Shown: positions 298-22,532 of the stretch, in pieces
How positions within the stretch are numbered: the first letter of the stretch is position 1
Layout of the letters: each line of letters opens with the position of its first letter
IMG/VR virus record: IMGVR_UViG_3300030333_002949
Span: 1 to 23,046 of that record
Direction: 5' to 3' (one strand)
Origin: a virus
Length of the DNA: 23,046 nucleotides
Position numbers and translations under genes: made by a program
Notes under the pieces: model-generated
Seen by the model: the letters and a program-made list of their open reading frames with translations, nothing else
Databases searched by the model: none
Told to the model about the DNA's origin: nothing

Positions 298-695
298 CCC
301 TGTATAGGGTGGCTTGCGGTAGAGCAACCGCAGGCAAGAGGTTTAGAGAAACCTTGTGGATAAAAGAAAGGAGAACTCTTCTCTCCGCCCCAGAGAGAAA
401 AGGTGGTAGGTCTTGATTGCAGTCTCATGCTCATGCCCAGCTCGAGATTTTTCCCCGACCTACCGAAAGGAATAGGTGGAGGCTTTTGTCGGCCAACGGC
501 TCGGTGCTTCTACCGCCTCTATTAACCCCTGAGGCTCACTTAAGTGAGAAGGGAAACACCTCGGAATTGGTTTGGACTACCCCGAATGTGTAGCCTCGCC
601 TCCTTTATGTGTGCTCCGTCTTGTCCTGTGCTCTTGGGGGACGGAGCCACCCCAAGCAGGCCAGATTCTCGCTGAAAGTGCGTTGCGAGTGTTAC
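298..695. other. Non-coding convergent region rich in inverted repeats
   Basis: I see no convincing gene in these 398 bases. They hold many short perfect inverted repeats: 312-320 with 327-335 (9 bp including one GU), 339-344 with 349-354 (6 bp, AGAG loop), 370-374 with 382-386, 405-412 with 457-464 (8 bp), a perfect 14-bp palindrome CTCACTTAAGTGAG at 535-548 inside GAGG/CCTC arms (531-534, 559-562), 613-620 with 640-647 (8 bp) and 668-672 with 685-689. The density suggests structured RNA, or termination signals for the two converging genes. A weak TATA-like TGTATAGG lies at 301-308. Confidence 0.5.
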
Positions 696-1196: not shown

Positions 1197-1261
1197 AACA
1201 ATTCACCTCCTCGGGGTTTCGCAATCCTCCCGCTTCGCATACTACAACTACGCGGAAGAAG

Positions 1262-1289
1262 CATATATATGTTCCTAACTCTTGAGTTA
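1262..1289 (-). promoter_or_regulatory. Operator plus TATA promoter for the minus-strand gene
   Basis: Read on the minus strand, the palindrome TAACTC-AA-GAGTTA (1276-1289) is followed by TATATATG starting at 1269, 18 bases after the A of ACTC. A CGGTAGAG element (1292-1299) lies just upstream. The predicted transcription start near 1240 gives a 44-base leader carrying the Shine-Dalgarno. Confidence 0.7.
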
Positions 1290-1363
1290 CGCTCTACCGA
1301 TTATTCCCTATATCTACTCTTACGCGCGTAGGAGCGACTTCTCTAATTACAGATAAAAGATTC

Positions 1364-1413
1364 CGGTAGAGGCGTCTCCCGCCCCGACATGTAGCGACTT
1401 AGAAATGTTTATG
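1364..1413 (+). promoter_or_regulatory. Archaeal promoter for 1458-1898
   Basis: AGAAATGTTTATG at 1401-1413 matches the TATA half of the operator promoters but lacks the palindrome. CGGTAGAG occurs at 1364-1371. Transcription should begin near 1437. A perfect palindrome TACGCGCGTA at 1321-1330 lies between this promoter and the divergent one. Confidence 0.5.
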
Positions 1414-1457
1414 TGCTTACAATCCAAATGTGTAGTTATGATGCGTGAGGCGATAAT

Positions 1458-1898
1458 ATGAAAAAATGTGAGGCGATGGGATGCGACAGTGAGGTTGAGT
1501 TATTTTGTAATGACCAATTTTTCTGTGAGGCGTGTGGGGTAGAGTATTCAAAGGCTACACGACACATGACTCAACCTATTATGATGGCTTCTCAATTAGA
1601 CGACATGGATGAAGATGAGCGGATGATGCTTGACCCGCTTACAGTCATTGTAGACGACAATGAACACAATCGAGAGCATAAAACATTCTCAACATCTGAT
1701 ATAGATACTCATGAGACACTTCTTGTTCAAGAGGGAATTACTATTGTAGGAGAACCTATTGTTATGGCGAGATGTATATTCTGTGAGGCATACGCTATCG
1801 GTCACATAAATAAGGTCGGCGGGTGGCTTGCGAGGCATCAGCACTACCACGGATATATTGAGCACAGTGATGACGATGACCACCCACTTGCCTCTTGA
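1458..1898 (+). CDS. Protein with N- and C-terminal zinc motifs
   Basis: This 146-residue protein starts with a Cys cluster (C4, C9, C17, C23, C26, including FFCEACG) and ends with a C2H2-like motif (C106, C109, H127, H131) and an acidic, His-containing tail. The middle (about 45-70) is acidic and Met-rich. I do not recognise the family; two zinc modules suggest nucleic-acid or protein binding. GAGG at 1447-1450 supports the ATG at 1458. A seven-codon ORF (ATG 1438, at the predicted transcription start) ends in an ATGA overlap with this start and might couple translation. The stop codon overlaps the operator of the next promoter. Confidence 0.65.
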   Translation: MKKCEAMGCDSEVELFCNDQFFCEACGVEYSKATRHMTQPIMMASQLDDMDEDERMMLDPLTVIVDDNEHNREHKTFSTSDIDTHETLLVQEGITIVGEPIVMARCIFCEAYAIGHINKVGGWLARHQHYHGYIEHSDDDDHPLAS

Positions 1899-1916
1899 GT
1901 CAGAAATAGTTATAAG
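1891..1916 (+). promoter_or_regulatory. Operator plus TATA promoter for the helicase operon
   Basis: CTC-TT-GAGT (1892-1900) lies within the end of the upstream gene and is followed by CAGAAATA and GTTATAAG (1909-1916). Spacing matches the other operator promoters. The first base of the palindrome is C instead of A. It should drive 1955-4555. Confidence 0.65.
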
Positions 1917-1954
1917 CATGGACGGGGTTTGTAGATTGAAAGGAGGCGAAGCCG

Positions 1955-2224
1955 ATGGCTAAGAGAATTATGGACGAGATAACTATCCACATATTGACCT
2001 GTGGTAAGTGTGAGAAAACAACGACTATGACGCACGAAGAGTTCCATCCCGAAAGAGCAAAGTGCTGTGGAGTGCTTTACACCGACTGGGCTTTAATGAC
2101 CAAGAAAGGACATGACCGCGGGAGATTTTGGAGTGTAATCAACATGATAAGAACCGAGAAATTAGATTCTTGCGAGAATAAAATATGGAGGACGCATCAC
2201 TATGAGCAAAACAGCAGAAGATGA
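1955..2224 (+). CDS. Small zinc-binding protein
   Basis: The protein has 89 residues with a likely zinc site made of C16, C19 (TCGKC), H31 and C37/C38 (AKCCG), followed by a basic helix-rich C-terminus. I do not recognise a named family. A good Shine-Dalgarno AGGAGGC near 1940-1946 supports the ATG. It is the first gene after the operator promoter at 1891-1916 and overlaps the next gene by 23 bases, so the two are probably translationally coupled. Small zinc proteins of this kind in viruses often modulate host proteins; nothing here proves that role. Confidence 0.65.
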   Translation: MAKRIMDEITIHILTCGKCEKTTTMTHEEFHPERAKCCGVLYTDWALMTKKGHDRGRFWSVINMIRTEKLDSCENKIWRTHHYEQNSRR

Positions 2225-2765
2225 GATAGAGGAGTGGAAAGAACCAGAGTTCCCTATGGACTACCTAATTAGAACACAGGAGAATACAATTACTCAAACG
2301 AAATACCTATTCTACAAACTCTATGATGTGAGTGATAAAGGATGGAGTGACGAACAGAAGGAAGAGTGGGGTCATCATGTTAATGAGGATGGTTTCAGAA
2401 AGTCCGAGTTGTTCGACAAAGTGCCTGCTGAGCATAGATATGTGGTAGCAATACCCGAGACAGGCGAGTGGAAATCATTTAGAACAAGGTCAGAAGTGAC
2501 TCAAGACAGGACCGGTGGTGCTATGTATCCTTATGCTCAATGGTCAGTCCATGAAACGGCTCGAATGGAATCCTATGGAGCGATAAAATTGATGAGCCTT
2601 GCGTGTTCTAAGGTCCTTCCTGAGAATGCAGACGACGGGATTACACTTCTCCAACCAAAGGATATAGAGAGAGCAGCACTTATGCTTCTTGACCTCGAAG
2701 CGGAGCGAAGGGAACTTATGACCTTAGTATATGACGACTATGGGGGAGAATTCAATGACTATTGA
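2202..2765 (+). CDS. Hypothetical protein upstream of the helicase
   Basis: The product has 187 residues, is acidic and soluble, and has no signal peptide or membrane segment. I see no catalytic motif. A mixed alpha/beta region (about 70-110, including RYVVAIPETGEWKSF) is followed by a helical C-terminal half. GGAGG about 12 bases upstream serves as Shine-Dalgarno. Its 3' end overlaps the SF2 helicase start by 11 bases, which suggests coordinated production and perhaps a helicase accessory role. That role is inferred from position only. Confidence 0.6.
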   Translation: MSKTAEDEIEEWKEPEFPMDYLIRTQENTITQTKYLFYKLYDVSDKGWSDEQKEEWGHHVNEDGFRKSELFDKVPAEHRYVVAIPETGEWKSFRTRSEVTQDRTGGAMYPYAQWSVHETARMESYGAIKLMSLACSKVLPENADDGITLLQPKDIERAALMLLDLEAERRELMTLVYDDYGGEFNDY

Positions 2766-4401
2766 GATAGAAAATCTGCCGAGTGGTGTTTCCGAGCGGC
2801 TAAAAGAACTCGATGATACCAAGAGAACAGATATGAGCCTGTATCTTTGGCAGGAGGGAGCCATTCAAGCGTGGGCTGGAGTGGGAATTGCAAAAGAGCC
2901 ACTAACAGAGAAACCACTTCCCGATGACCAAGAATATCGAGGCATCATTTCAGCAGTGACCGGTGCAGGTAAGACCTATGTTGCGTCCGAGTGCGCGTGG
3001 GTCTGGCTTCAAGAGCACCCTGTTGGTCGTATAACAGTCTTGGTCCCTTCAAGAGCATTACAGAATAAGTGGAGAAAAGACATGGCTCAGGCATTTCCAA
3101 ACATGAGAATAGGTATGATTGGTGGCGGTAGGAGGGATTTCAGACAAATCTCTATCGTGACCATGAATACGGCCGCGAAAGGTCTTCCAGAGACAGACGG
3201 TGACCATCTTATCATCGTTGATGAGTGCCATAATATAGGGTCCGAGTTCCGACAATATGCTATTCGCAACAACGACCACACTGCAATTTTAGGTCTTAGC
3301 GCAACTCCAGCAAGAGAAGATAGCGGTTTGACCGTTGTATCACACCTATGCGGTCCGGTCGTGTATGAGTATAAGTATGACCAAGCCCTTGAGGATGATG
3401 TTATTATCCCGTTTAGAGTCAGAGCAATCAACATTCCTCTAACACGCATGGAACGAGCGGAATATGACGACTATACAAATCGAATCCGCAAAGTCTCTTT
3501 CATTCTCAAGAAGCGATATGGAGCAGGGACCAATTGGTTCGCCATGAAGGAGGACCCTAACGAGCCGGATATGGCCTTAACTCGATTTAAGGAGTTATGT
3601 ATGCGCCGTAAGAGACTTGTTAATGAGTGCCATTTCAGATTCGAGTGCGTTGATGAGATTCTTAGGATTCACGAGCACAGTAAGACCATGATATTTCACG
3701 AGCGCATAGCGCAGTTAGAGTGGATGAATACGAAATATAGTGCTCAAGAACTCCCATACATAGCAAACTCAAGCGAGGAAGGCTTCCCCCTCACATGGGA
3801 AGAAGTCGGTTTAGAGCAACCGGACACTTCCGAGTGGGAAGGGATGAACCCCGAGATATATCACGGCGACCGAAGTAAAGGTGAGAATGATAAAGCATTC
3901 GAGCGATTTGCAGAAGGTGAGTCAAAACTTCTCCTATCCTGTAAAGCACTTAGAGAAGGAGTTGATGTGCCTTCGTGCGACTTAGGTATCATGGTGAGTG
4001 GGACTAATTCGGCTCGTGCAAGAGTTCAGACACTTGGTCGTTGCCTAAGACGGGGAGAAGGTAAGACTGAGGCAATAGTCTATGTTCTCTTTGTCCCAAA
4101 TACGACCGATGCTAAAGGACTCGCTAACCTAAAATATGGCGGTAGGCTCCCCGAAGGCACTATCGAGTGGTGGAAATACAATCCAAACAAGGGTCTTAAG
4201 AAGATTGGAGAAGAAGAGAAGCCCGAAATACCCAAGAGCCGTCCTAAAGCAGAGAAGCAGAAACATATATGCGAGTCATGCCACAAGGTCTTTCATACAG
4301 AGTCAGCGTCAAAACCAGAGAACCACCATTGTTCCCCGAGATTGACTAAGACAGGTCGTAAGCCGATAGACCTTTGGGGTGAAATGATTGGTCGAAGGTG
4401 A
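2755..4401 (+). CDS. SF2 helicase, XPB/Rad25-like, with C-terminal zinc motif
   Basis: This 548-residue enzyme shows the superfamily 2 motif set in order: a Q-like LWQEGAIQAW (31-40), motif I AVTGAGKT (67-74), Ia LVPSRAL, motif II DECH (156-159), motif III LSATPA (181-186), motif V ALREGVDVP (398-406) and motif VI QTLGRCLRR (425-433). The arrangement resembles XPB/Rad25-type and phage SF2 helicases. It should use ATP to translocate on or open duplex DNA in repair, recombination or replication. A C-terminal zinc module (C506, C509, H514, H525, C526) is appended. The start at 2755 is chosen because GGGGGAG lies just upstream; an ATG at 2731 would place that site inside the gene. Confidence 0.92.
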   Translation: MTIEIENLPSGVSERLKELDDTKRTDMSLYLWQEGAIQAWAGVGIAKEPLTEKPLPDDQEYRGIISAVTGAGKTYVASECAWVWLQEHPVGRITVLVPSRALQNKWRKDMAQAFPNMRIGMIGGGRRDFRQISIVTMNTAAKGLPETDGDHLIIVDECHNIGSEFRQYAIRNNDHTAILGLSATPAREDSGLTVVSHLCGPVVYEYKYDQALEDDVIIPFRVRAINIPLTRMERAEYDDYTNRIRKVSFILKKRYGAGTNWFAMKEDPNEPDMALTRFKELCMRRKRLVNECHFRFECVDEILRIHEHSKTMIFHERIAQLEWMNTKYSAQELPYIANSSEEGFPLTWEEVGLEQPDTSEWEGMNPEIYHGDRSKGENDKAFERFAEGESKLLLSCKALREGVDVPSCDLGIMVSGTNSARARVQTLGRCLRRGEGKTEAIVYVLFVPNTTDAKGLANLKYGGRLPEGTIEWWKYNPNKGLKKIGEEEKPEIPKSRPKAEKQKHICESCHKVFHTESASKPENHHCSPRLTKTGRKPIDLWGEMIGRR

Positions 4402-4555
4402 GATTCATAGATGCGACTTAGAATTGACCGGATTCACCTATAACTCCAAAAATTGGACCGTTATCGAGGAATATACCTGCAAAGAGTGCGGAGCAAGAGC
4501 CACGAAAAAAGTCGAAAAAGTCTACAGTATTGACGAGTATTCAGCGAATCTTTGA
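4388..4555 (+). CDS. Small zinc peptide with TTG start
   Basis: This 55-residue ORF is easily missed because it starts with TTG, overlapping the helicase end by 14 bases. The Shine-Dalgarno GGGGTGA at 4378-4384 supports it. The product has HRC near the N-terminus (H7, C9) and YTCKECG (C31, C34), a zinc pattern resembling the C-x-H...C-x2-C modules elsewhere in this genome. The clear zinc signature and the ribosome-binding site argue that it is real. Function is unknown; it is the last gene of the helicase operon. Confidence 0.6.
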   Translation: MVEGEIHRCDLELTGFTYNSKNWTVIEEYTCKECGARATKKVEKVYSIDEYSANL

Positions 4556-4561
4556 TTGTGC

Positions 4562-4604
4562 CGGTAGAGCCTTAGCAACTCAAGAGTTCGCAATGTTTAT
4601 ATCC
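4562..4604 (+). promoter_or_regulatory. Operator plus TATA promoter of the ArdC operon
   Basis: CGGTAGAG (4562-4569) is followed by AACTC-AA-GAGTT (4577-4588) and CAATGTTTATATCC, with TTTATA at 4596-4601, 18 bases after the A of ACTC. The ATG at 4625 lies about 26 bases after the TATA centre, so the transcript is predicted to be leaderless. Confidence 0.75.
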
Positions 4605-4624
4605 TTAATTGATTATTTAGTAGT

Positions 4625-5839
4625 ATGGCGAAAGCAGGAGACTTCGGAAGGAAGATGAGCGGTGAAGCCCGTAAAGAGTTTGAGCGCAAACTCGCAGACG
4701 ACTTCATCTCACAAATCAAATCCGGCAAGGTCGGTGCTTGGAGTTCCGGTTGGGACAATCTCGGAGGAGCGGCAATACCTCATAATCCGAAAGGTCGTCC
4801 ATACTCAGGCATAAATACGGTCATACTATGGCTTAGAGGTTGGGAATACAACTCTAATACATGGGGGACCTATAACGCTTGGAAAGAGGTTGCGAGGAAA
4901 CACGCAATAAAAGAGGGCAATTTTGAGTTAAAAGTTGGCCGAGACGGAAAACCATACAAGCACACGACCGAGTGGTTTGGAGTTAAGAAAGGTGAAGAGG
5001 GAACGAATATCATTCTCTGGAAACCGCTCACTTACAAAAGCGAGAAGGAAAATAAAACGACAGGCGAAATGGAGACAACCATAGGCACGACAATGCTTAT
5101 GCGAGTCTTTACGGTATTCAACCGTGACCAAACAGGATTACCTGAGATTATCACAGATACCGAGTTAGAAGAAGCAGAGGACTTCAATAGACCAGAACAG
5201 GAATTGGAGAACTGCCTAAACTACTATATTGAGAAACCAAATAGGAAACTCATAGGTGTTGGTGAGATTTTACCATCAGGAGAAAAAGCCGAAGAACCCG
5301 AGTGGGTTATCAAGAGCGGGGAAATCTTGCTCAAACACGGCGGGGATAGAGCGTTTTATACATCTGGTCGCGATAGGATAGCACTTCCTCTTCGCGAGCA
5401 ATTCAAATCTAATGCGAGATACCTATCTACTAAGGGGCATGAGATTATCCATAGCACAGGTCATCCACTTCGACTTAACAGAAATCTTGGAAACTCCTTC
5501 GGGAGTGAAGATTATGCTAAAGAGGAGTTGATTGCCGAGTTCGGAACAGCGTTCCTCATCGGCTCATTCGGCATACAAGGAGAACTTCGCAATGTTGAGT
5601 ATATCAATAATTGGGCGGCGGTCTTGAGCAAAGAACCAAGATTCCTCATTACGGCGGCTCAAAGGGCGCAGAAAGCGGTCAATTATGTTCTTGACCCTTG
5701 GCTCGAACACGAGGTATGGCGTGAGCAAGAAATGGAGTCTTTGGCTGAGAAATTAGAAGGTAAGACCATCGTGATTGAGGAACAGGCACTTAACCGACTA
5801 CACGGAGAACTTCACGATTTGAAGGAGGAAGAGGAATGA
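4625..5839 (+). CDS. ardC: ArdC-type antirestriction protein with zincin domain
   Basis: The 404-residue product has the two-domain ArdC layout: an N-terminal ssDNA-binding domain (about 15-170, with PHNPKGRPYSGIN and NTWGTYNAWKEV) and a C-terminal zincin-like metallopeptidase domain. The zinc site is visible as HEIIH (272-276) followed by EELIAEFG (300-307), whose Glu should be the third ligand. The family is known from plasmids and phages, where ArdC binds single-stranded DNA and protects incoming DNA from host restriction. A leaderless, operator-controlled promoter and first place in its operon fit an early protein made on entry. Substrate and protease activity cannot be judged from the sequence. 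Confidence 0.9.
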   Translation: MAKAGDFGRKMSGEARKEFERKLADDFISQIKSGKVGAWSSGWDNLGGAAIPHNPKGRPYSGINTVILWLRGWEYNSNTWGTYNAWKEVARKHAIKEGNFELKVGRDGKPYKHTTEWFGVKKGEEGTNIILWKPLTYKSEKENKTTGEMETTIGTTMLMRVFTVFNRDQTGLPEIITDTELEEAEDFNRPEQELENCLNYYIEKPNRKLIGVGEILPSGEKAEEPEWVIKSGEILLKHGGDRAFYTSGRDRIALPLREQFKSNARYLSTKGHEIIHSTGHPLRLNRNLGNSFGSEDYAKEELIAEFGTAFLIGSFGIQGELRNVEYINNWAAVLSKEPRFLITAAQRAQKAVNYVLDPWLEHEVWREQEMESLAEKLEGKTIVIEEQALNRLHGELHDLKEEEE

Positions 5840-5961
5840 TTTGGTGTCCCGAGTGCAAAGAAGATTGGGAGTCCTGTGGCTCTACAAGACCTGATGGTGA
5901 CGAGGAATGTTTGAAATGCGGAGCAATCTTTTGTCGGTGTTGTGGGAGTGCGATAGTATGA
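5836..5961 (+). CDS. 41-residue Cys-rich zinc protein
   Basis: The ATG overlaps the ArdC stop (ATGA), with AAGGAGGAAGAGGA just upstream. Eight of 41 residues are Cys: CPEC (4, 7), C14, CLKC (25, 28) and CRCC (33, 35, 36). That is enough to bind one or two zinc ions. The 3' end overlaps the next gene by ATGA. Start and stop coupling on both sides and the Cys spacing make it very likely real. Function unknown. Confidence 0.65.
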   Translation: MIWCPECKEDWESCGSTRPDGDEECLKCGAIFCRCCGSAIV

Positions 5962-6350
5962 AGGTCTTAAAATTAGAGATAAATATGGATGCAGAGAATA
6001 AGGACGACTTCGTAAATGCAATTATGGAGTTGAGCCCAAAAGAGTTAAAAGAGCACATAACCGTCAGTAGAGAGATTCTTCATCCACTTGACCACGCGTC
6101 CGGTTGGGACCCTTGGGGTAATGAAAAAGGTCGATTTTGGTCATACAAATCCACTAAGGTTCTCTATCAGTATATTGAGAGACATCACGCCGAGTCAATG
6201 TTAGATAGACCAATAAGCCCCGAAGAGTGGGACCGATTCCTAAAGAGATTTCAAGACACATACGCGGAGTTAGCATCCGAGTTAGCATACGAGTGTCTAC
6301 AAACATGGGATTGGGAGGAAAAAGAAAATGATGACCAGAAAACACTTTGA
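5958..6350 (+). CDS. Hypothetical helical protein
   Basis: This 130-residue protein has no recognised domain. It looks mostly helical and is rich in Trp and acidic residues towards the C-terminus. I start it at ATG 5958, which overlaps the upstream zinc gene by ATGA; an in-frame ATG at 5907 would run through that gene. It overlaps the next gene by 23 bases. It belongs to the ArdC operon of small accessory proteins. Confidence 0.6.
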   Translation: MKVLKLEINMDAENKDDFVNAIMELSPKELKEHITVSREILHPLDHASGWDPWGNEKGRFWSYKSTKVLYQYIERHHAESMLDRPISPEEWDRFLKRFQDTYAELASELAYECLQTWDWEEKENDDQKTL

Positions 6351-6522
6351 GAGAATTGCAGAAATACTGAACGACAATACTATGAGAGATGGTAATATAG
6401 ATAGAGAGGTTGTTAGCGACCTTGCTATATTCTTCGGAGAAGATAATCCTAATTTCGACATAGAAAGATTCCTCAAGGCCGCGAGAAAAAAAGTGACCGA
6501 TTGGATGTTCGAGGATATGTGA
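6328..6522 (+). CDS. Small phage-type protein (MTRKHFE family)
   Basis: This 64-residue protein carries the pattern TRKHFERIAEIL ... NPNFDIERFLKAA, which I recognise from many tailed-phage small proteins of unknown function. GGGAGG at 6313-6318 precedes two adjacent ATGs (6328 and 6331); the second corresponds to the usual start of the family. Finding this family next to archaeal promoters suggests gene exchange between viruses of the two domains. No catalytic residues are known. Confidence 0.75.
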   Translation: MMTRKHFERIAEILNDNTMRDGNIDREVVSDLAIFFGEDNPNFDIERFLKAARKKVTDWMFEDM

Positions 6523-6526
6523 TATT

Positions 6527-7018
6527 ATGGGAGAATTTATTGAGGAAGTCCCAATATACTACTATGTAGGAGACCCCTGTTATGTTATTGACGACAATAG
6601 GTGGGATGAGTTTTGCAACCAACTCTTTTCAAAAGATAGTAGCGGTTATCCGGTCGGCATAAAATGGGAAGTCGATGGTGAGACATACGACATCGAAGTT
6701 TGGAATTCTCCCGGAGGTGATGGGGTTTGGGGATTTTCTCAAACCGATAGTCTCGGTAATAGTGTTCATCTCGGCGTCGACGCTGGATTACTTGCTATTG
6801 TGCCGGTAGAGTGTTGTGAAAGAGAAGAACTTGGTTCCTCCTTTGGTGCTTGGTTCTCACACCGTCCCGATTTAGAGACAGATGATGGACCATTTATGGG
6901 AGGTTATGTTATGCTTAATGGAGAAAAAGACAATAGTTGGACCCAATGTTGGGAGTGTGGTGAAGAGCAAAGATATGATTTCGACTATTGCGACAACTGC
7001 GGATTGGAGGTGAATTGA
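6527..7018 (+). CDS. GDPCYV-motif protein with C-terminal zinc ribbon
   Basis: The 163-residue product starts with a beta-rich domain containing GDPCYVID (15-22) and WDEFC (26-30), a pattern I know from uncharacterised phage and bacterial proteins. It ends in a zinc ribbon (C141, C144, C155, C158). The middle region (about 50-95) is rich in Gly, Trp and Asp. No enzymatic role is known to me. It sits in the ArdC operon and is followed by another zinc protein one base after its stop. Confidence 0.65.
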   Translation: MGEFIEEVPIYYYVGDPCYVIDDNRWDEFCNQLFSKDSSGYPVGIKWEVDGETYDIEVWNSPGGDGVWGFSQTDSLGNSVHLGVDAGLLAIVPVECCEREELGSSFGAWFSHRPDLETDDGPFMGGYVMLNGEKDNSWTQCWECGEEQRYDFDYCDNCGLEVN

Positions 7019-7213
7019 ATGAGTGCAAAAGAAAATGCGATAAAACTCTGTAAGAGAAACGGGCATGATTGGGAAGTCGGTATTAACGACAGTTTCGATG
7101 AAGTGACCGTAAATCTTCTATGTCGAAACTGCGAAGCGACATGCGAGGCGACTGGTGATGTTCGGGCAGACGACGGGAGATTCTTATACGTAGATATTGA
7201 ATACCGATATTGA
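7019..7213 (+). CDS. Small C-H-C-C zinc protein
   Basis: The product has 64 residues. Its zinc ligands are probably C11, H16, C35 and C38, with C42 spare, in the pattern C-x4-H-x-W ... C-x2-C. The same module appears at the C-terminus of the protein at 8001-8456. The Shine-Dalgarno GGAGGTGA (7006-7013) is excellent and the ATG directly follows the upstream stop. It is the last gene of the ArdC operon. Function unknown. Confidence 0.65.
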   Translation: MSAKENAIKLCKRNGHDWEVGINDSFDEVTVNLLCRNCEATCEATGDVRADDGRFLYVDIEYRY

Positions 7214-7247
7214 GTGGTTATACTCAAGAGTCAGAAATCTTTTTATG
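7210..7247 (+). promoter_or_regulatory. Operator plus TATA promoter for 7284-7493
   Basis: Three half sites are stacked: TTGAGT (7210-7215), ACTCAA (7222-7227) and GAGTCA (7228-7233), so the palindrome ACTC-AA-GAGT at 7222-7231 is flanked by an extra inverted half site. AGAAATCTTTTTATG follows. Transcription should start near 7270, just before the Shine-Dalgarno. Confidence 0.65.
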
Positions 7248-7283
7248 TAAGAACCTCAATGTGGTAGCATAGGAGGTGAAAAA

Positions 7284-7493
7284 TTGGAAATGCAAAGAGA
7301 AAGATATGTTGGGAGTCTTGAAGTATCTACCTATATTGCGAGATGTAAAAATATAGAGTGTGATGTTAGAGATTATCAATACACAATGAGAATAGTATCT
7401 ACTGTTTCGCAATCAGAGTTTCTACTAATACCATCGACATGTCCGGTATGCAAAGAAGAGAAGATTAACAAGCATAGAAATCCTCATTTTTAG
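7284..7493 (+). CDS. Small zinc protein with TTG start
   Basis: This 69-residue protein has two Cys pairs (C21, C26 and C53, C56) likely to form one zinc site. I place the start at TTG 7284 because AGGAGGTG (7271-7278) lies at ideal spacing; ATG 7290 is two codons later and also possible. It has its own operator promoter and is followed by the promoter of the RNA candidate, so it looks like a monocistronic unit. Function unknown. Confidence 0.6.
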   Translation: MEMQRERYVGSLEVSTYIARCKNIECDVRDYQYTMRIVSTVSQSEFLLIPSTCPVCKEEKINKHRNPHF

Positions 7494-7496
7494 AGA

Positions 7497-7524
7497 TGAC
7501 TCAAGAGTCAGCAATGTTTATATC
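7497..7524 (+). promoter_or_regulatory. Operator plus TATA promoter of the RNA candidate
   Basis: TGACTC-AA-GAGTCA (7497-7510) is the most perfect copy of the operator after the minus-strand one. CAATGTTTATATCC follows with TTTATA at 7517-7522. Transcription is predicted near 7546, the first base of a 10-bp stem. Confidence 0.75.
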
Positions 7525-7545
7525 CTTCCCCCGCCTATGCGTAGA

Positions 7546-7644
7546 TGTAGGGGGCTATGAGGCGAAATGAATCATCCTGAGGTTTCACCAACCTCCTTTC
7601 TACACATAGTATATTTTCTCGTTCAGAGAGCCTCGCCCCCTACA
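7546..7644 (+). ncRNA. Candidate structured viral RNA, about 100 nt
   Basis: TGTAGGGGGC (7546-7555) pairs with GCCCCCTACA (7635-7644). After a 3-base bulge, GAGGC (7559-7563) pairs with GCCTC (7630-7634). Inside are a hairpin GAGGTT-TCACC-AACCTC (7579-7595) and a smaller one TCTC-GTTCA-GAGA (7617-7629), giving a three-way junction. The predicted promoter start coincides with the 5' end of the outer stem. It could be a free small RNA or the leader of the 7741 operon. Family unknown; it is not a tRNA or any RNA I recognise. Confidence 0.5.
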
Positions 7645-7740
7645 CAGGCGGTGAGATTTTGCCGTTAAGAGTGGGTAGATTTGAAAGGATGATGAGAACA
7701 TTTAGGAAATACAGAGAAATAGTAAAGGAGGAATTAAATC

Positions 7741-10362: not shown

Positions 10363-10370
10363 TTGGGTAG

Positions 10371-10390
10371 TTTAATTCTTTTTATTCTTT
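10371..10390 (+). terminator. T-rich putative terminator
   Basis: Thirteen or more T residues in 20 bases directly after the stop at 10362 fit the U-tract terminators of archaea. There is no required hairpin. Confidence 0.4.
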
Positions 10391-10413
10391 CAATCCCCTA
10401 CTGAAATAATAAC

Positions 10414-10430
10414 AGGGGCGTAGTGCATCG
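10414..10430 (+). repeat. 17-bp direct repeat, copy 1
   Basis: Identical to 10534-10550. The GGGG at its start recalls the G-string of archaeal origin boxes, but the rest does not match that consensus. Confidence 0.75.
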
Positions 10431-10533
10431 AAACTCCGTATATATTTTATTTCGTGTAGGGTATTTATCTACTCTACTGTCTCGTGCGTAGTGTCTATAC
10501 ATCTACATAGGGAAATAAAAGAATTAGTCCAGT

Positions 10534-10550
10534 AGGGGCGTAGTGCATCG
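10534..10550 (+). repeat. 17-bp direct repeat, copy 2
   Basis: Identical to 10414-10430, 120 bases downstream and in the same orientation. The core GCGTAGTG is also at 10486-10493 between the two. Confidence 0.75.
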
Positions 10551-10722
10551 GTTTATTCTTTTTGTAGTCTACAGAAATAATTAAAAGAATTAATTTGGTG
10601 CAAAGGTTCTTAAGGGGATGGTGTGTGTGAAGGCCATAAGCCGCACATTGCTAACGAGCAGAACAACATTTAGAGATATTAACAACATGAAGGAGATTAA
10701 GAATTAACGAAGTGGCTTACCA

Positions 10723-13607: not shown

Positions 13608-13681
13608 GTAAAAAGAAATTGAGTAAAGATGGGTTAGAGATATTTGAGTTCAAACTACCATCAAAGGAGGAAGAAGAATGA
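13604..13681 (+). CDS. 25-residue coupled micro-ORF
   Basis: The ORF begins and ends in ATGA overlaps with its neighbours, filling the space between them exactly. The product MSKKKLSKDGLEIFEFKLPS plus an acidic tail has no recognised relative. It could be a real microprotein or simply keep ribosomes loaded for the next gene. Confidence 0.4.
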   Translation: MSKKKLSKDGLEIFEFKLPSKEEEE

Positions 13682-13968
13682 TTGATAAAGCCTCAAGAAG
13701 AAATGCTATTTACGACACAGTTATGAGATGGGAACATACTACCGATAATCACCCATTCACAACGATAGACATAATTAACTCTGGTATCATATCAGATGTT
13801 GGTCTAAATGGAAGGATTATCCCGCGAGGGCTAAATCGTTCTTTTTCAGCGATTAACGCTGGTCTTTCCGAATTAGAAAGAAAGGGCGTATTGATTCAAA
13901 CAAGAGAACAGGGGAAAGGGGAAATTAGGCAATGGCGAGTAATATCAAATGGAGAGGCTATTGCATAG
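13678..13968 (+). CDS. Winged-helix DNA-binding protein
   Basis: The 96-residue product looks like a single winged helix: helices around 5-20 and 60-75 (SAINAGLSELERKGVL), followed by a wing (IQTREQGKGEIRQWRV). Such proteins usually bind DNA as transcription regulators; this is a candidate for the factor reading the ACTC-NN-GAGT operator. AAGGAGGAAGAAGA precedes the ATG. It overlaps the next gene by 37 bases. Confidence 0.6.
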   Translation: MIDKASRRNAIYDTVMRWEHTTDNHPFTTIDIINSGIISDVGLNGRIIPRGLNRSFSAINAGLSELERKGVLIQTREQGKGEIRQWRVISNGEAIA

Positions 13969-14845: not shown

Positions 14846-15018
14846 TGGCTTATTTCTATGAGTTTGTTATTATAGCCTCTCTACTATGGAATCCAACAAT
14901 GCGTTTAGTGTTTAGATTTATAAATACACTCGGATTTTTTAAGCCGGAAAAATTCTCCGGCGCGAGAGGCGAAGAGGGTAATGATTTGATGTGGTCATCG
15001 ACTTTTCTTGAACAGTAA
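14845..15018 (+). CDS. Small membrane-protein candidate
   Basis: The GTG at 14845 overlaps the upstream TAG by one base. The 57-residue product starts with a hydrophobic segment (YFYEFVIIASLLWNPTMRLV), a plausible single transmembrane helix, then a polar tail. It is the only convincing membrane segment in the window. An internal hairpin GCCGGA/TCCGGC lies at 14943-14961. Translation is unproven. Confidence 0.4.
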   Translation: MAYFYEFVIIASLLWNPTMRLVFRFINTLGFFKPEKFSGARGEEGNDLMWSSTFLEQ

Positions 15019-15020
15019 GG

Positions 15021-15051: not shown

Positions 15052-15570
15052 GTGTCTATCAAGAGAAAGTCTTGGGGTTCGCGGGGCGAAAAGCCTCATG
15101 AAGACCGGACAGGCTTAAGAGGAAGGACACTTTACTATATGGGAAGAAGAAGTAGGGGAAAAAGGATGACGGCACACAACGCAAGAATAAGAAGGGAACT
15201 CATCTATATTCTATGGGATATTGAAGAACCATTGACCAAACAAGAGATTACAACAGAATTAACGAAAAGGATGAAACTAATCAACACACCATCCCCTATA
15301 TCATTAGGCACTATATTATCCCGAAACCCTCAAGTTAATTCATCTAATTCCATCATCATTACTACTGGTGACGGTAGAAGAAGGCGCGTTCCGCAGTATG
15401 AAATCAATGAAGAGTTAATTCAGCATCCCGATGATATTATTCTTACACTCCCATACAACGCACTAACTAAGAAGGAGAAAGAATCGGCGGTATTGTGTAA
15501 AGGATGCGGTAGGAGAAGATACTTCACAGAAGATATGGAACTATGTTTGCAATGCACTCGTTGCCCCTAA
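15052..15570 (+). CDS. Winged-helix plus zinc-ribbon DNA-binding protein
   Basis: The 172-residue product has a very basic N-terminus (1-45), a winged-helix-like domain (about 46-125; RELIYILWDIEEPLTKQEIT) and a C-terminal Cys cluster (C149, C152, C165, C168, C171). It is a likely transcription factor and a candidate for the viral switch protein. The GTG start fits a leaderless transcript. An out-of-frame ATG at 15050 encodes only 22 residues and is rejected. It precedes the RFC unit. Confidence 0.65.
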   Translation: MSIKRKSWGSRGEKPHEDRTGLRGRTLYYMGRRSRGKRMTAHNARIRRELIYILWDIEEPLTKQEITTELTKRMKLINTPSPISLGTILSRNPQVNSSNSIIITTGDGRRRRVPQYEINEELIQHPDDIILTLPYNALTKKEKESAVLCKGCGRRRYFTEDMELCLQCTRCP

Positions 15571-15575
15571 CAATG

Positions 15576-15581
15576 TTTATA
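15576..15581 (+). promoter_or_regulatory. TATA box in CAATGTTTATAAC
   Basis: TTTATA is centred about 27 bases before ATG 15606, predicting a leaderless transcript. The CAATGTTTATA string matches the TATA part of the operator promoters at 4591 and 7512, but the palindrome is missing. Confidence 0.65.
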
Positions 15582-15605
15582 ACTAACTTCTTGCCTGCTT
15601 AGGTT

Positions 15606-15806: not shown

Positions 15807-16720
15807 AAGTAATATGGGCTGAAAAGTATCGACCTAAAGCATTGGATGAAGTATTATCACAGGATGCGGTAGTATCTGAAATGCGAGCGGTGGTTAATGG
15901 TGATGCGCCCATGCAACACTTCCTCTTTCATAGTCCAGAGCCGGGTAGTGGTAAAACCACTATGGCGAGGGTTATGGCCGAAGAATTAGGTTATCAACTC
16001 CATGAGTTCAATGCTTCGACTAAGAAACAAAGGGGAATAGATTTTGTCGAAGATGATATATCCCCTATGTCTCGTATCGGTCAATGGGAAACTATTTTTC
16101 TCCTTGATGAAGCCGATAGGATTACACCGACTGCACAGGACGCTTTGAAAGGTGTTATTGAGAACGCGCAGGGATATTTCATATTGACCTGTAATGACTT
16201 AAACAAAGTGAGCCCTTGGCTCAAATCGAGATGCCAAGTTAGGACCTTCAAACCTATACCCGATGATTTGGTAATGGAGAGGCTTAAGCATATCTGTGTT
16301 CAAGAGGCGGTGGAAATGACCGAAGATGATTTGTTAATAATTATTAACAAGCATGGCGGGGATATGAGAAATGCAATAGGCGCACTTCAAGCGGCCTCTT
16401 ATTTATCCCCTATTGATAGACAACAATTCATCTCTTCTATTAGTGCGCCCGACATTGATGCGGGCAAAGTGCTAACATTACTGACCAAGAACCATGATGT
16501 TCAGTCAGCCGTTGATTTATTATCTACTACGCCTGCGCGTGAGGCAATACACCATGTATTCTTGAAAGCGGTAGATGCTAATATGAGTAACATTCCATTG
16601 AAGATGCTTGTTGTTGAGGGGGCAATACAGGCACGCCGAGATATCATAAACGGCGTTCCCGAATCTTATGTAGTATGGGAGTTTTGCAGATTTATTAGTG
16701 AATCATGCAAATGCTTATAA
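15803..16720 (+). CDS. rfcS: Replication factor C small subunit (clamp loader ATPase)
   Basis: The 305-residue AAA+ protein begins WAEKYRP, the hallmark of RFC subunits. It has Walker A PEPGSGKTT (45-53), Walker B FLLDEAD (99-105), sensor 1 LTCN (128-131) and the SRC motif with arginine finger (142-144), then an RFC collar-like C-terminal domain. It should open and load the sliding clamp at primer ends using ATP. Host archaeal RFC has small and large subunits; no large subunit is seen here, so it may form a homo-oligomer, use a host large subunit or use an unrecognised viral partner. Its stop codon lies in the TATA box of the next promoter. Confidence 0.95.
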   Translation: MKVIWAEKYRPKALDEVLSQDAVVSEMRAVVNGDAPMQHFLFHSPEPGSGKTTMARVMAEELGYQLHEFNASTKKQRGIDFVEDDISPMSRIGQWETIFLLDEADRITPTAQDALKGVIENAQGYFILTCNDLNKVSPWLKSRCQVRTFKPIPDDLVMERLKHICVQEAVEMTEDDLLIIINKHGGDMRNAIGALQAASYLSPIDRQQFISSISAPDIDAGKVLTLLTKNHDVQSAVDLLSTTPAREAIHHVFLKAVDANMSNIPLKMLVVEGAIQARRDIINGVPESYVVWEFCRFISESCKCL

Positions 16721-19142: not shown

Positions 19143-19153
19143 TTCTCACAAGA

Positions 19154-19161
19154 CTTATAAG
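19154..19161 (+). promoter_or_regulatory. Palindromic TATA box CTTATAAG
   Basis: CTTATAAGTAAATGC is centred about 26 bases before ATG 19184, so the clamp-like gene is probably leaderless. The box drives the unit 19184-22168. Confidence 0.65.
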
Positions 19162-19183
19162 TAAATGCAGGGTGGATTAGAAT

Positions 19184-21215: not shown

Positions 21216-22168
21216 ACTTTAGCGAGTTCGTGCCTTTAACAATAGATAATTACAGAGGCTTTAGGAACGGTCTTTATCGTGCCTACCGGCATCCACGATA
21301 TTATCAATCCCCGCTTAGGTTAATGCACCAACCCCATGTGTTCAAGGTAGGGTATGTTGATGATGACTTGGTCGTTCTGAAAGACAGACAAATAATGGGA
21401 ACACAGGTTCTCTATTCTATACTGCCCCCTAATAATTGGGAGGTTATAGAACGATTAACAGAAGGAGGTGTTCCTTGTTTTCTAAGTGATGAAGATGTAT
21501 TCAACGCTCCTAAGAAACACGGTCTTATTCCTGTGAAAGACAACATAGAGTATGTCTATCATCTTTCTGCTTTCTCAGATAGATACGGGGTGAATAAGAA
21601 TCAACTTAGAAGGCCATGTAATAAGGCTGAGTCGCTTCGCGAGTCGGGTGCAATTAACATTGAAGCGCATTGGGGCAATGTTCCCTACGAAACGCTTGAA
21701 TCATGTAATACTTTGACCGCCAAATGGTTAGGGCAGAGGGATAAGAAAGCATGGAAGCCTAACTTCTTTATTGACTCGTTCAATGCTTATTCTAAATTAG
21801 AAACTTCTCTTCTTCTGACTGTTATGCAGGGGGATAGATGCTTAGGCTACCACCTATCACATAGGGTATGTAATGGTCTAATCTATGATGTGGCCTGTAA
21901 AGATTATGAGGACACACCGATTAAGGATATGACCCCTGTCCTTCTTCACTATGCTTCTAAGGCATGGGCTGAGAAATACCCTTCGCAGGTTGAATACACA
22001 AGGGTTAATAGAGGAGCGGCAGTTAGGGGTGCTTCGAGTAAAACTGCTAAAGACAAACTAAGACCGCTATTGAAGAATCAGATATACAAGACAGTTCCTC
22101 CTATCAAGATGACTAAAGAATTGAAATCATCATACTTTGAAGTAAAACAGAATGTCGAGTGGTTATAG
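21206..22168 (+). CDS. GNAT-fold (DUF2156-like) acyl/aminoacyl transferase
   Basis: The 320-residue product resembles DUF2156/FemAB-type GNAT-fold proteins: YVYHLSAFSDRYGVNKNQLR with RRPCNKAE (N-terminal lobe of the fold), W...KR spacing, strands LLLTVMQGDRCLGYHLSH and LIYDVACKDYED, then KDKLRPLLKNQIYKT at the end. Members transfer acyl or aminoacyl groups. Overlap with the methylase gene and the shared C-terminal VEWL peptide suggest that both work on the same substrate, perhaps a DNA base, as GNAT-fold Mom does in phage Mu. Substrate not visible. Confidence 0.6.
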   Translation: MALDFSEFVPLTIDNYRGFRNGLYRAYRHPRYYQSPLRLMHQPHVFKVGYVDDDLVVLKDRQIMGTQVLYSILPPNNWEVIERLTEGGVPCFLSDEDVFNAPKKHGLIPVKDNIEYVYHLSAFSDRYGVNKNQLRRPCNKAESLRESGAINIEAHWGNVPYETLESCNTLTAKWLGQRDKKAWKPNFFIDSFNAYSKLETSLLLTVMQGDRCLGYHLSHRVCNGLIYDVACKDYEDTPIKDMTPVLLHYASKAWAEKYPSQVEYTRVNRGAAVRGASSKTAKDKLRPLLKNQIYKTVPPIKMTKELKSSYFEVKQNVEWL

Positions 22169-22174
22169 CAAAGC

Positions 22175-22182
22175 CTTATAAG
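22175..22182 (+). promoter_or_regulatory. Palindromic TATA box CTTATAAG
   Basis: CTTATAAGTAATGCC follows the stop of the GNAT gene. Transcription should start near 22204, giving a leader of about 32 bases before ATG 22236. Confidence 0.65.
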
Positions 22183-22186
22183 TAAT

Positions 22187-22220
22187 GCCTATGTCGGGTA
22201 ATAGTAGTAAGCCCATAGGC
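22187..22220 (+). promoter_or_regulatory. Inverted repeat spanning the predicted transcription start
   Basis: GCCTATG (22187-22193) and CATAGGC (22214-22220) form 7-bp arms, with the predicted transcription start between them. The position suits a repressor site, perhaps for autoregulation by the HTH protein encoded directly downstream. Confidence 0.5.
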
Positions 22221-22235
22221 AGAAGGCCATAACAA

Positions 22236-22532
22236 ATGAAACTTAGTTTAGTAATAGAGACAGAAGAAGAAACGACAACAGTTCCGATAGAACCGAATGC
22301 GCGAGTAATCATAGATGGAGTTTACTATGTTCTATCTACCGGTATCGCTATGCGAAACCCCACCGGACATAAGCCATATAGAGATAAGAATTGGCTAAAC
22401 GCTATGTATATTGATGAAGAACTCACTTTGAAAGAAATAGCCGACGGTTGTGGTGTAAGCCCAATGACTATCAATCAGTGGCTCTTCAAGCACAAGATAC
22501 CAAGCCGACCAAGAGGGAGGCGTAAGGAGTGA
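22236..22532 (+). CDS. Helix-turn-helix protein
   Basis: The 98-residue product has a beta-rich N-terminal half (about 1-38) and a C-terminal homeodomain-like HTH (about 50-92; ELTLKEIADGCGVSPMTINQ, WLFKHKIPSRP) with a basic end. It resembles HTH modules of phage regulators and HNH-linked proteins. It may bind the inverted repeat at 22187-22220. It overlaps the next gene by GTGA. Confidence 0.7.
   Translation: MKLSLVIETEEETTTVPIEPNARVIIDGVYYVLSTGIAMRNPTGHKPYRDKNWLNAMYIDEELTLKEIADGCGVSPMTINQWLFKHKIPSRPRGRRKE

Follow-up and report, generated by a model that had tools for sequence, protein, structure and literature searches.

A palindromic element beside TATA boxes as putative operator of an early-gene regulon in a probably archaeal clade of tailed viruses

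Operator sites and promoter architecture

The viral DNA analysed here, termed the window, comprises the 23,046 nucleotides of IMG/VR record IMGVR_UViG_3300030333_002949. It encodes a Lys-rich protein, two Cys-rich proteins, a helicase operon and an ArdC-like anti-restriction protein, and it includes a candidate structured RNA followed by a further operon (Table 1). Five promoters of this region carry the palindrome ACTC-NN-GAGT, referred to below as the operator. The palindrome occurs exactly as ACTCNNGAGT at 1278-1287, 4578-4587, 7222-7231 and 7499-7508, with no further exact copy in the window, and as CCTCTTGAGT with one mismatch at 1891-1900. A first-pass annotation, made from the letters of the window, had named these five sites on both strands; the motif scan recovered all of them, four on the forward and one on the reverse strand. 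The shift of about two bases that it described for the 7222 copy is only apparent: its GTAG is in register with those of the other copies, and at 5/5 sites the TATA register starts 18 nt after the first operator base. A sixth promoter, ahead of the 146-aa Cys-rich protein gene, is of like build with a degenerate palindrome (TGTAGCGACT). Its orthologue in IMGVR 3300030104_003872 (75.3 kb) retains the palindrome as ACTCGTGAGA with one outer mismatch.

The 75.3-kb record (G1) is one of three related records that were compared with the window. Positions 40778-63613 of G1 and 2433-24636 of IMGVR 3300030329_002067 (G2, 51.7 kb) align with the window, the latter with 93-98% identity in aligned blocks. 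Record 3300032278_000110 (G3, 25 kb) has the early region and structural genes in common with it. Because the 23-kb window aligns with parts of the 51.7-kb and 75.3-kb records, it is part of a virus and not a whole one.

Enrichment of the decamer alone is modest, whereas the operator-plus-TATA composite far exceeds chance expectation. Four exact decamers stand against 0.35 expected in the window, a count reached by 1 of 100 shuffles, and the 11 copies at one mismatch (7.6 expected) show no enrichment. The strict composite CTCNNGAG-N8..10-TATA was counted three times in the window (0.06 expected) and 10, 5, and 8 times in the related records (0.15, 0.11, and 0.02 expected, respectively), so that the comparison with shuffled sequence extends to related viruses. 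The earlier judgment that chance is unlikely thus holds for the composite but not for the decamer at one mismatch. A search with the operator, BRE (transcription factor B recognition element), and TATA pattern ACTCNNGAGTNNNNAATNTTTATA at ≤3 mismatches returned precisely the five reported sites, and its reversed control gave 0-1 matches. When 4-base palindromes with all gaps from 0 to 8 were counted upstream of TATA, ACTC-2-GAGT took rank 1 in the window, G1, G2, and G3; the same count did not find it in five operator-less relatives. The spacing is not random, with a CTC-to-TATA offset of 17 dominating in each of the four main records, and the motif is not equally common inside genes, since 20/22 exact decamers of these records lie at promoters.

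The anatomy of the promoters was derived from an alignment of 30 operator promoters from the four main records. Two G2 orthologues duplicating window sites were left out, and G2 9058 was retained beside window 7499. From 5′ to 3′, the module reads CGGTAG or AACTCGAG, ACTC-NN-GAGT, BRE, TTTATA, ~18 nt, and GTAG. In the CTC and GAG half-sites, 5/6 positions are invariant, the exception being one base. The middle NN and the outer operator bases drift, and the flanks vary across divergent records. The operator directly adjoins the 8-nt BRE segment (nnGAAAnn), in which G-6 is present in 24/30 and A-3 in 28/30 promoters; both together are found in 22/30 operator promoters versus 18/165 other TATA-like sites. 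TTTATA or a near variant follows. GTAG occurs at offsets of 20-28 from the TATA start in 25/30 promoters (null 0.77), most commonly at exactly 24, and is likely the initiator. As a sequence proxy, this predicted start ~25 nt after TATA agrees with the starts expected in the first-pass annotation. Some of the transcripts would have no leader or almost none, the ardC ATG lying ~5 nt after its predicted start. Within 50 nt upstream of the operator, CGGTAG is found in 10/30 promoters (null 0.5) and AACTCGAG in 4/30 (null 0.12), so that about half carry one or the other. Two further elements were rejected: another CTC-NN-GAG farther upstream than the operator (1/30 versus null 1.2), and longer leader hairpins, whose mean stem was shorter than the null. 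A short GC-purine-GC motif is enriched within the initial 25 nt of the leaders (14/30, null 0.9), often as GCGGAAGC or GGCCGGAAGGCC ahead of the ribosome site.

Table 1. Operators, promoter parts, and genes of the window. Offsets are counted from the first TATA base.
Feature	Position	Strand	Remark
Lys-rich protein gene, 166 aa	696-1196	-	
GTAG, predicted initiator, Lys-rich protein promoter	1242-1245	-	promoter alignment; offset 24
TATA box TATATA	1264-1269	-	promoter alignment
BRE taggaaca	1270-1277	-	promoter alignment
Operator ACTCAAGAGT, Lys-rich protein promoter	1278-1287	-	motif scan, composite search, alignment
Upstream CGGTAGAG element	1292-1299	-	
Upstream CGGTAGAG element, sixth promoter	1364-1371	+	
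TATA (TTTATG), sixth promoter	1408-1413	+	
GTAG, sixth promoter	1432-1435	+	
Cys-rich protein gene, 146 aa	1458-1898	+	served by sixth promoter
Operator CCTCTTGAGT, ahead of helicase operon	1891-1900	+	one mismatch
TATA register GTTATA, helicase operon promoter	1909-1914	+	
GTAG, helicase operon promoter	1931-1934	+	offset 22, 2 nt closer
Helicase operon	1955-4555	+	89-aa protein, 187-aa protein (2202-2765), superfamily 2 helicase (to 4401), 55-aa protein
CGGTAGAG, ardC promoter	4562-4569	+	
Operator ACTCAAGAGT, ahead of ardC	4578-4587	+	
BRE tcgcaatg, ardC promoter	4588-4595	+	
TATA box TTTATA, ardC promoter	4596-4601	+	
GTAG, ardC promoter	4620-4623	+	
ArdC-like anti-restriction protein gene	4625-5839	+	ArdcN plus MPTase-PolyVal
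Operator ACTCAAGAGT, ahead of 69-aa protein gene	7222-7231	+	
TATA register TTTTTA(TG), 69-aa gene promoter	7240-7245	+	
GTAG, 69-aa gene promoter	7264-7267	+	in register with other copies
Cys-rich protein gene, 69 aa	7284-7493	+	
Operator ACTCAAGAGT, ahead of RNA candidate and downstream operon	7499-7508	+	
BRE cagcaatg, 7499 promoter	7509-7516	+	
TATA box TTTATA, 7499 promoter	7517-7522	+	
GTAG, 7499 promoter	7541-7544	+	

Viral clade and regulated genes

A fourth operator-bearing record, 3300001450_000034 (G4, 62.7 kb), whose major capsid protein (MCP) is 93-94% identical, was added by a later motif scan and record search. Operator sites number ~11 in G1, ~8 in G3, 5 in G2, and 4 in G4. All copies of G1 are located within 33.3-47.3 kb of the 75-kb record, and the four composite sites of G4 lie at 0.6-4.5 kb with none in the remainder. 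An MCP scan yielded 279 relatives. The module was matched with ≤2 mismatches in 3/44 records searched; one of these has a chance-like site, and the other two belong to the near clade (MCP 93-97% identical). It is absent from 10/10 far, near-complete records of 55-68 kb (MCP 62-65% identical). Five of these ten keep the structural and replication core and miss nearly all operator-region genes. Because far relatives retain the core without these genes, the module is assigned to a lineage-specific, predicted early region of small genes, to which it is confined. Sixteen other contigs contain the exact composite motif but were discounted as chance matches, having one site each and no homology to these viruses. 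From a second motif scan, two true relatives were found and several further contigs were set aside, most with weak PolB similarity or none.

The clade probably consists of tailed viruses of archaea. They encode a portal-like protein, a terminase (Terminase_6C), and a family B polymerase, the best full-length matches of the polymerase (~23%) being from haloarchaeal tailed viruses. An RFC-like clamp loader and the presence of TATA/BRE promoters are further pointers to archaea. Among archaeal tailed viruses, the Magrovirales, which infect Poseidoniales, have PolB, portal, and terminase. MCP and terminase searches of GenBank phages returned nothing close, and the MCP was without a match in INPHARED. 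Scanning bacterial and archaeal genome contigs for the helicase and MCP proteins gave no homologue that would indicate a host, and no tRNA was found in the relatives.

The operator is preserved at several orthologous genes. It is kept between records at ardC (71-79% identical), at the Lys-rich protein and its paralogues, and at a 235-aa protein. At the helicase operon, and likewise at the Cys-rich 142-146-aa protein, some records carry it and others have a degenerate form. Within the Lys-rich paralogue family, the operator lies upstream of 8/10 members across six near-clade records. The remaining targets are small genes, each confined to a single virus, and the regulated units include operons as well as single genes. 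The first-pass proposal of a viral regulon is supported, with an operator at a fixed TATA distance on both strands and conservation at the orthologous ArdC, Lys-rich protein, helicase operon, and RNA loci. The ArdC homologue combines ArdcN with a metallopeptidase domain (MPTase-PolyVal) according to Pfam and PHROGs and is a probable anti-restriction gene. The regulated set of ArdC, helicase, Lys-rich paralogues, and many small proteins fits a predicted role in takeover and counter-defence.

Two of these loci are of separate note. The ArdC homologue, encoded at 4802-6034 in L044, resides in a probable archaeal tailed virus. Behind the 7499 promoter, window 7541-7660 (L044 around 7280) opens with the conserved start GTAGATGTAGGGGGYTRTGAGG and contains the long pairing GTAGGGGGC...GCCCCCTAC, a possible structured RNA; Rfam gave no match in the window.

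Candidate mechanism and its alternatives

The comparisons show half-sites under selection, a fixed geometry, and restriction to the predicted early region. With moderate confidence, ACTC-NN-GAGT is interpreted as the operator of an early-gene regulon, leaning toward repression. The core promoter would probably be read by host machinery at once after infection. A symmetrical dimeric regulator would then bind CTC-NN-GAG beside the BRE, control all module genes jointly, and shut the promoter off by blocking TFB/TBP. The promoter should work unaided because its BRE is of the preferred type, G-6 and A-3 being the preferred TFB site (PMC11065993). Since the operator abuts this strong BRE, a bound dimer would more naturally block TFB. 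As to the sign of the regulator, a repressor is rated slightly better than even and an activator as a tentative second, the rest falling to a host factor or other solutions.

Against this interpretation, the term "early" is inferred from location and gene content alone, and a host-encoded factor is a possible binder. Among the proteins that the first-pass annotation had offered as regulators, 13678-13968 looks like a winged helix in a model of moderate quality (predicted local distance difference test score, pLDDT, 63) with weak fold matches. Because no counterpart was detected in G4, a record with four operators, it is a less favoured candidate, although that contig may be incomplete. Homologues of 15052-15570 and 22236-22532 are found in operator-less relatives too, and nothing ties either to the operator. 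The distribution of the Lys-rich family is right for a regulator, but its paralogue diversification also suits an effector. The predicted structure of this family is poor and uninformative (pLDDT 44.5), and no helix-turn-helix was seen.

The foremost alternative, tentatively entertained, is an activator encoded by the virus, which would recruit TFB or TBP from the operator and switch the genes on together; the first-pass annotation had placed the site where archaeal activators bind. Binding upstream of BRE/TATA is usual for such activators. One of them, the cellular TFB-RF1 of Thermococcales, recognises the palindrome TCTG-N5-CAGA (PMC5937170). Like that palindrome, the operator sits directly upstream of the BRE and TATA at a rigid distance. 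However, TFB-RF1 acts at weak BREs (PMC5937170), whereas the BREs here are strong and, like the TATA boxes, near consensus; in addition, no regulator could be linked to the set of operators. Since the operator adjoins the BRE, a bound dimer could equally block TFB, and the activator reading is not supported.

It appears unlikely that a host transcription factor binds the operator and that the virus copied a host regulatory signal. In favour of such a factor, no clade-specific viral DNA-binding protein could be recognised as common to every operator-bearing record, and the best winged-helix candidate was not detected in the 62.7-kb record. The ten near-complete relatives without the site argue against it, though their host group may differ.

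A trace of recombination is visible at the 7222 and 7499 promoters. A segment of ~277-299 bp (window 7200-7498), containing one operator promoter and the 69-aa gene, is absent from G2 (L046 9040-9120). In the one promoter that G2 has here, the upstream flank of the 7222 copy meets the downstream flank of the 7499 copy, with the junction in the repeated promoter. Recombination between promoter repeats would be a simple explanation of this junction, which is one case and not proof. This trace lends some colour to a promoter cassette duplicated by recent copying or recombination without any bound regulator, which is nevertheless very improbable, as copying alone would not spare six half-site bases while flanks, middle NN, and outer bases vary across divergent records, and as BRE, TATA, and initiator alone would need no palindrome. 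It is a distinctly doubtful, bolder idea that the Lys-rich family, which has no recognised DNA-binding fold, is an autoregulated operator binder and that the operator promoters are exchange points for the gain and loss of early, possibly counter-defence, cassettes.

The putative operon and single-gene targets, read under the operator interpretation, would form an early-gene regulon of a type already known from crenarchaeal viruses and HF2, with its own operator. SIRV2 and other crenarchaeal viruses share regulatory sequences among early and anti-defence genes, and these sequences differ between viruses (PMC11065993). Virally encoded repressors of early genes are a proposed model there, with shut-off by Aca8 for SIRV2 (PMC11065993); no Aca8-like winged-helix gene was seen under the operator. 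In both cases, one regulatory sequence around a strong BRE/TATA precedes several unrelated small genes, including an anti-defence gene (here the predicted ArdC homologue). The clade described here differs in being tailed, in the conserved GTAG initiator and CGGTAG element, in the inclusion of operons, and in an operator that abuts the BRE rather than overlapping it, as the inverted repeats of the SMV2 regulatory sequence do (PMC11065993). The class I intergenic repeats of halovirus HF2 are likewise repeated promoter modules of an archaeal tailed virus with a common initiator, located ~26 nt from the TATA start (PMC8707807). Unlike the module, they have not been described as having a symmetrical operator at their core; BRE mutations were without effect, and an inverted repeat is present in IR4.5 only (PMC8707807). 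No regulon of this kind was found described in the literature for this virus clade.

With CTC-NN-GAG 17 nt before TATA and GTAG 24 nt after it as a sequence tag, probable early takeover and counter-defence genes can be listed in a clade of uncultured viruses for which homology is almost uninformative. Cloned promoters would also allow early transcription to be tested for tailed viruses of uncultured archaea. Because the gain is specific to this clade and has operator-less relatives beside it, it offers a case for studying the origin of a viral regulatory network.

Operator-less promoters and other intergenic features

TATA-like sites without an operator are located at 15003-15020, 15570-15590, 16698-16712, 19146-19166, and 22168-22190, several of them of the type CTTATAAG. 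They precede replication and later genes and may represent a second promoter class. Ahead of the replication operon, window 10364-10620 (L044 around 11037) contains the direct repeat AGGGGCGTAGTGCATCG twice, together with TATATATTTTATTTCGTGTAGGG, and may be another promoter or an origin-like region, again without the operator. A conserved intergenic stretch at window 300-690 (L044 740-1100) carries short inverted repeats such as GGAGAACTCTTCTCTCC along with CGGTAGAG.

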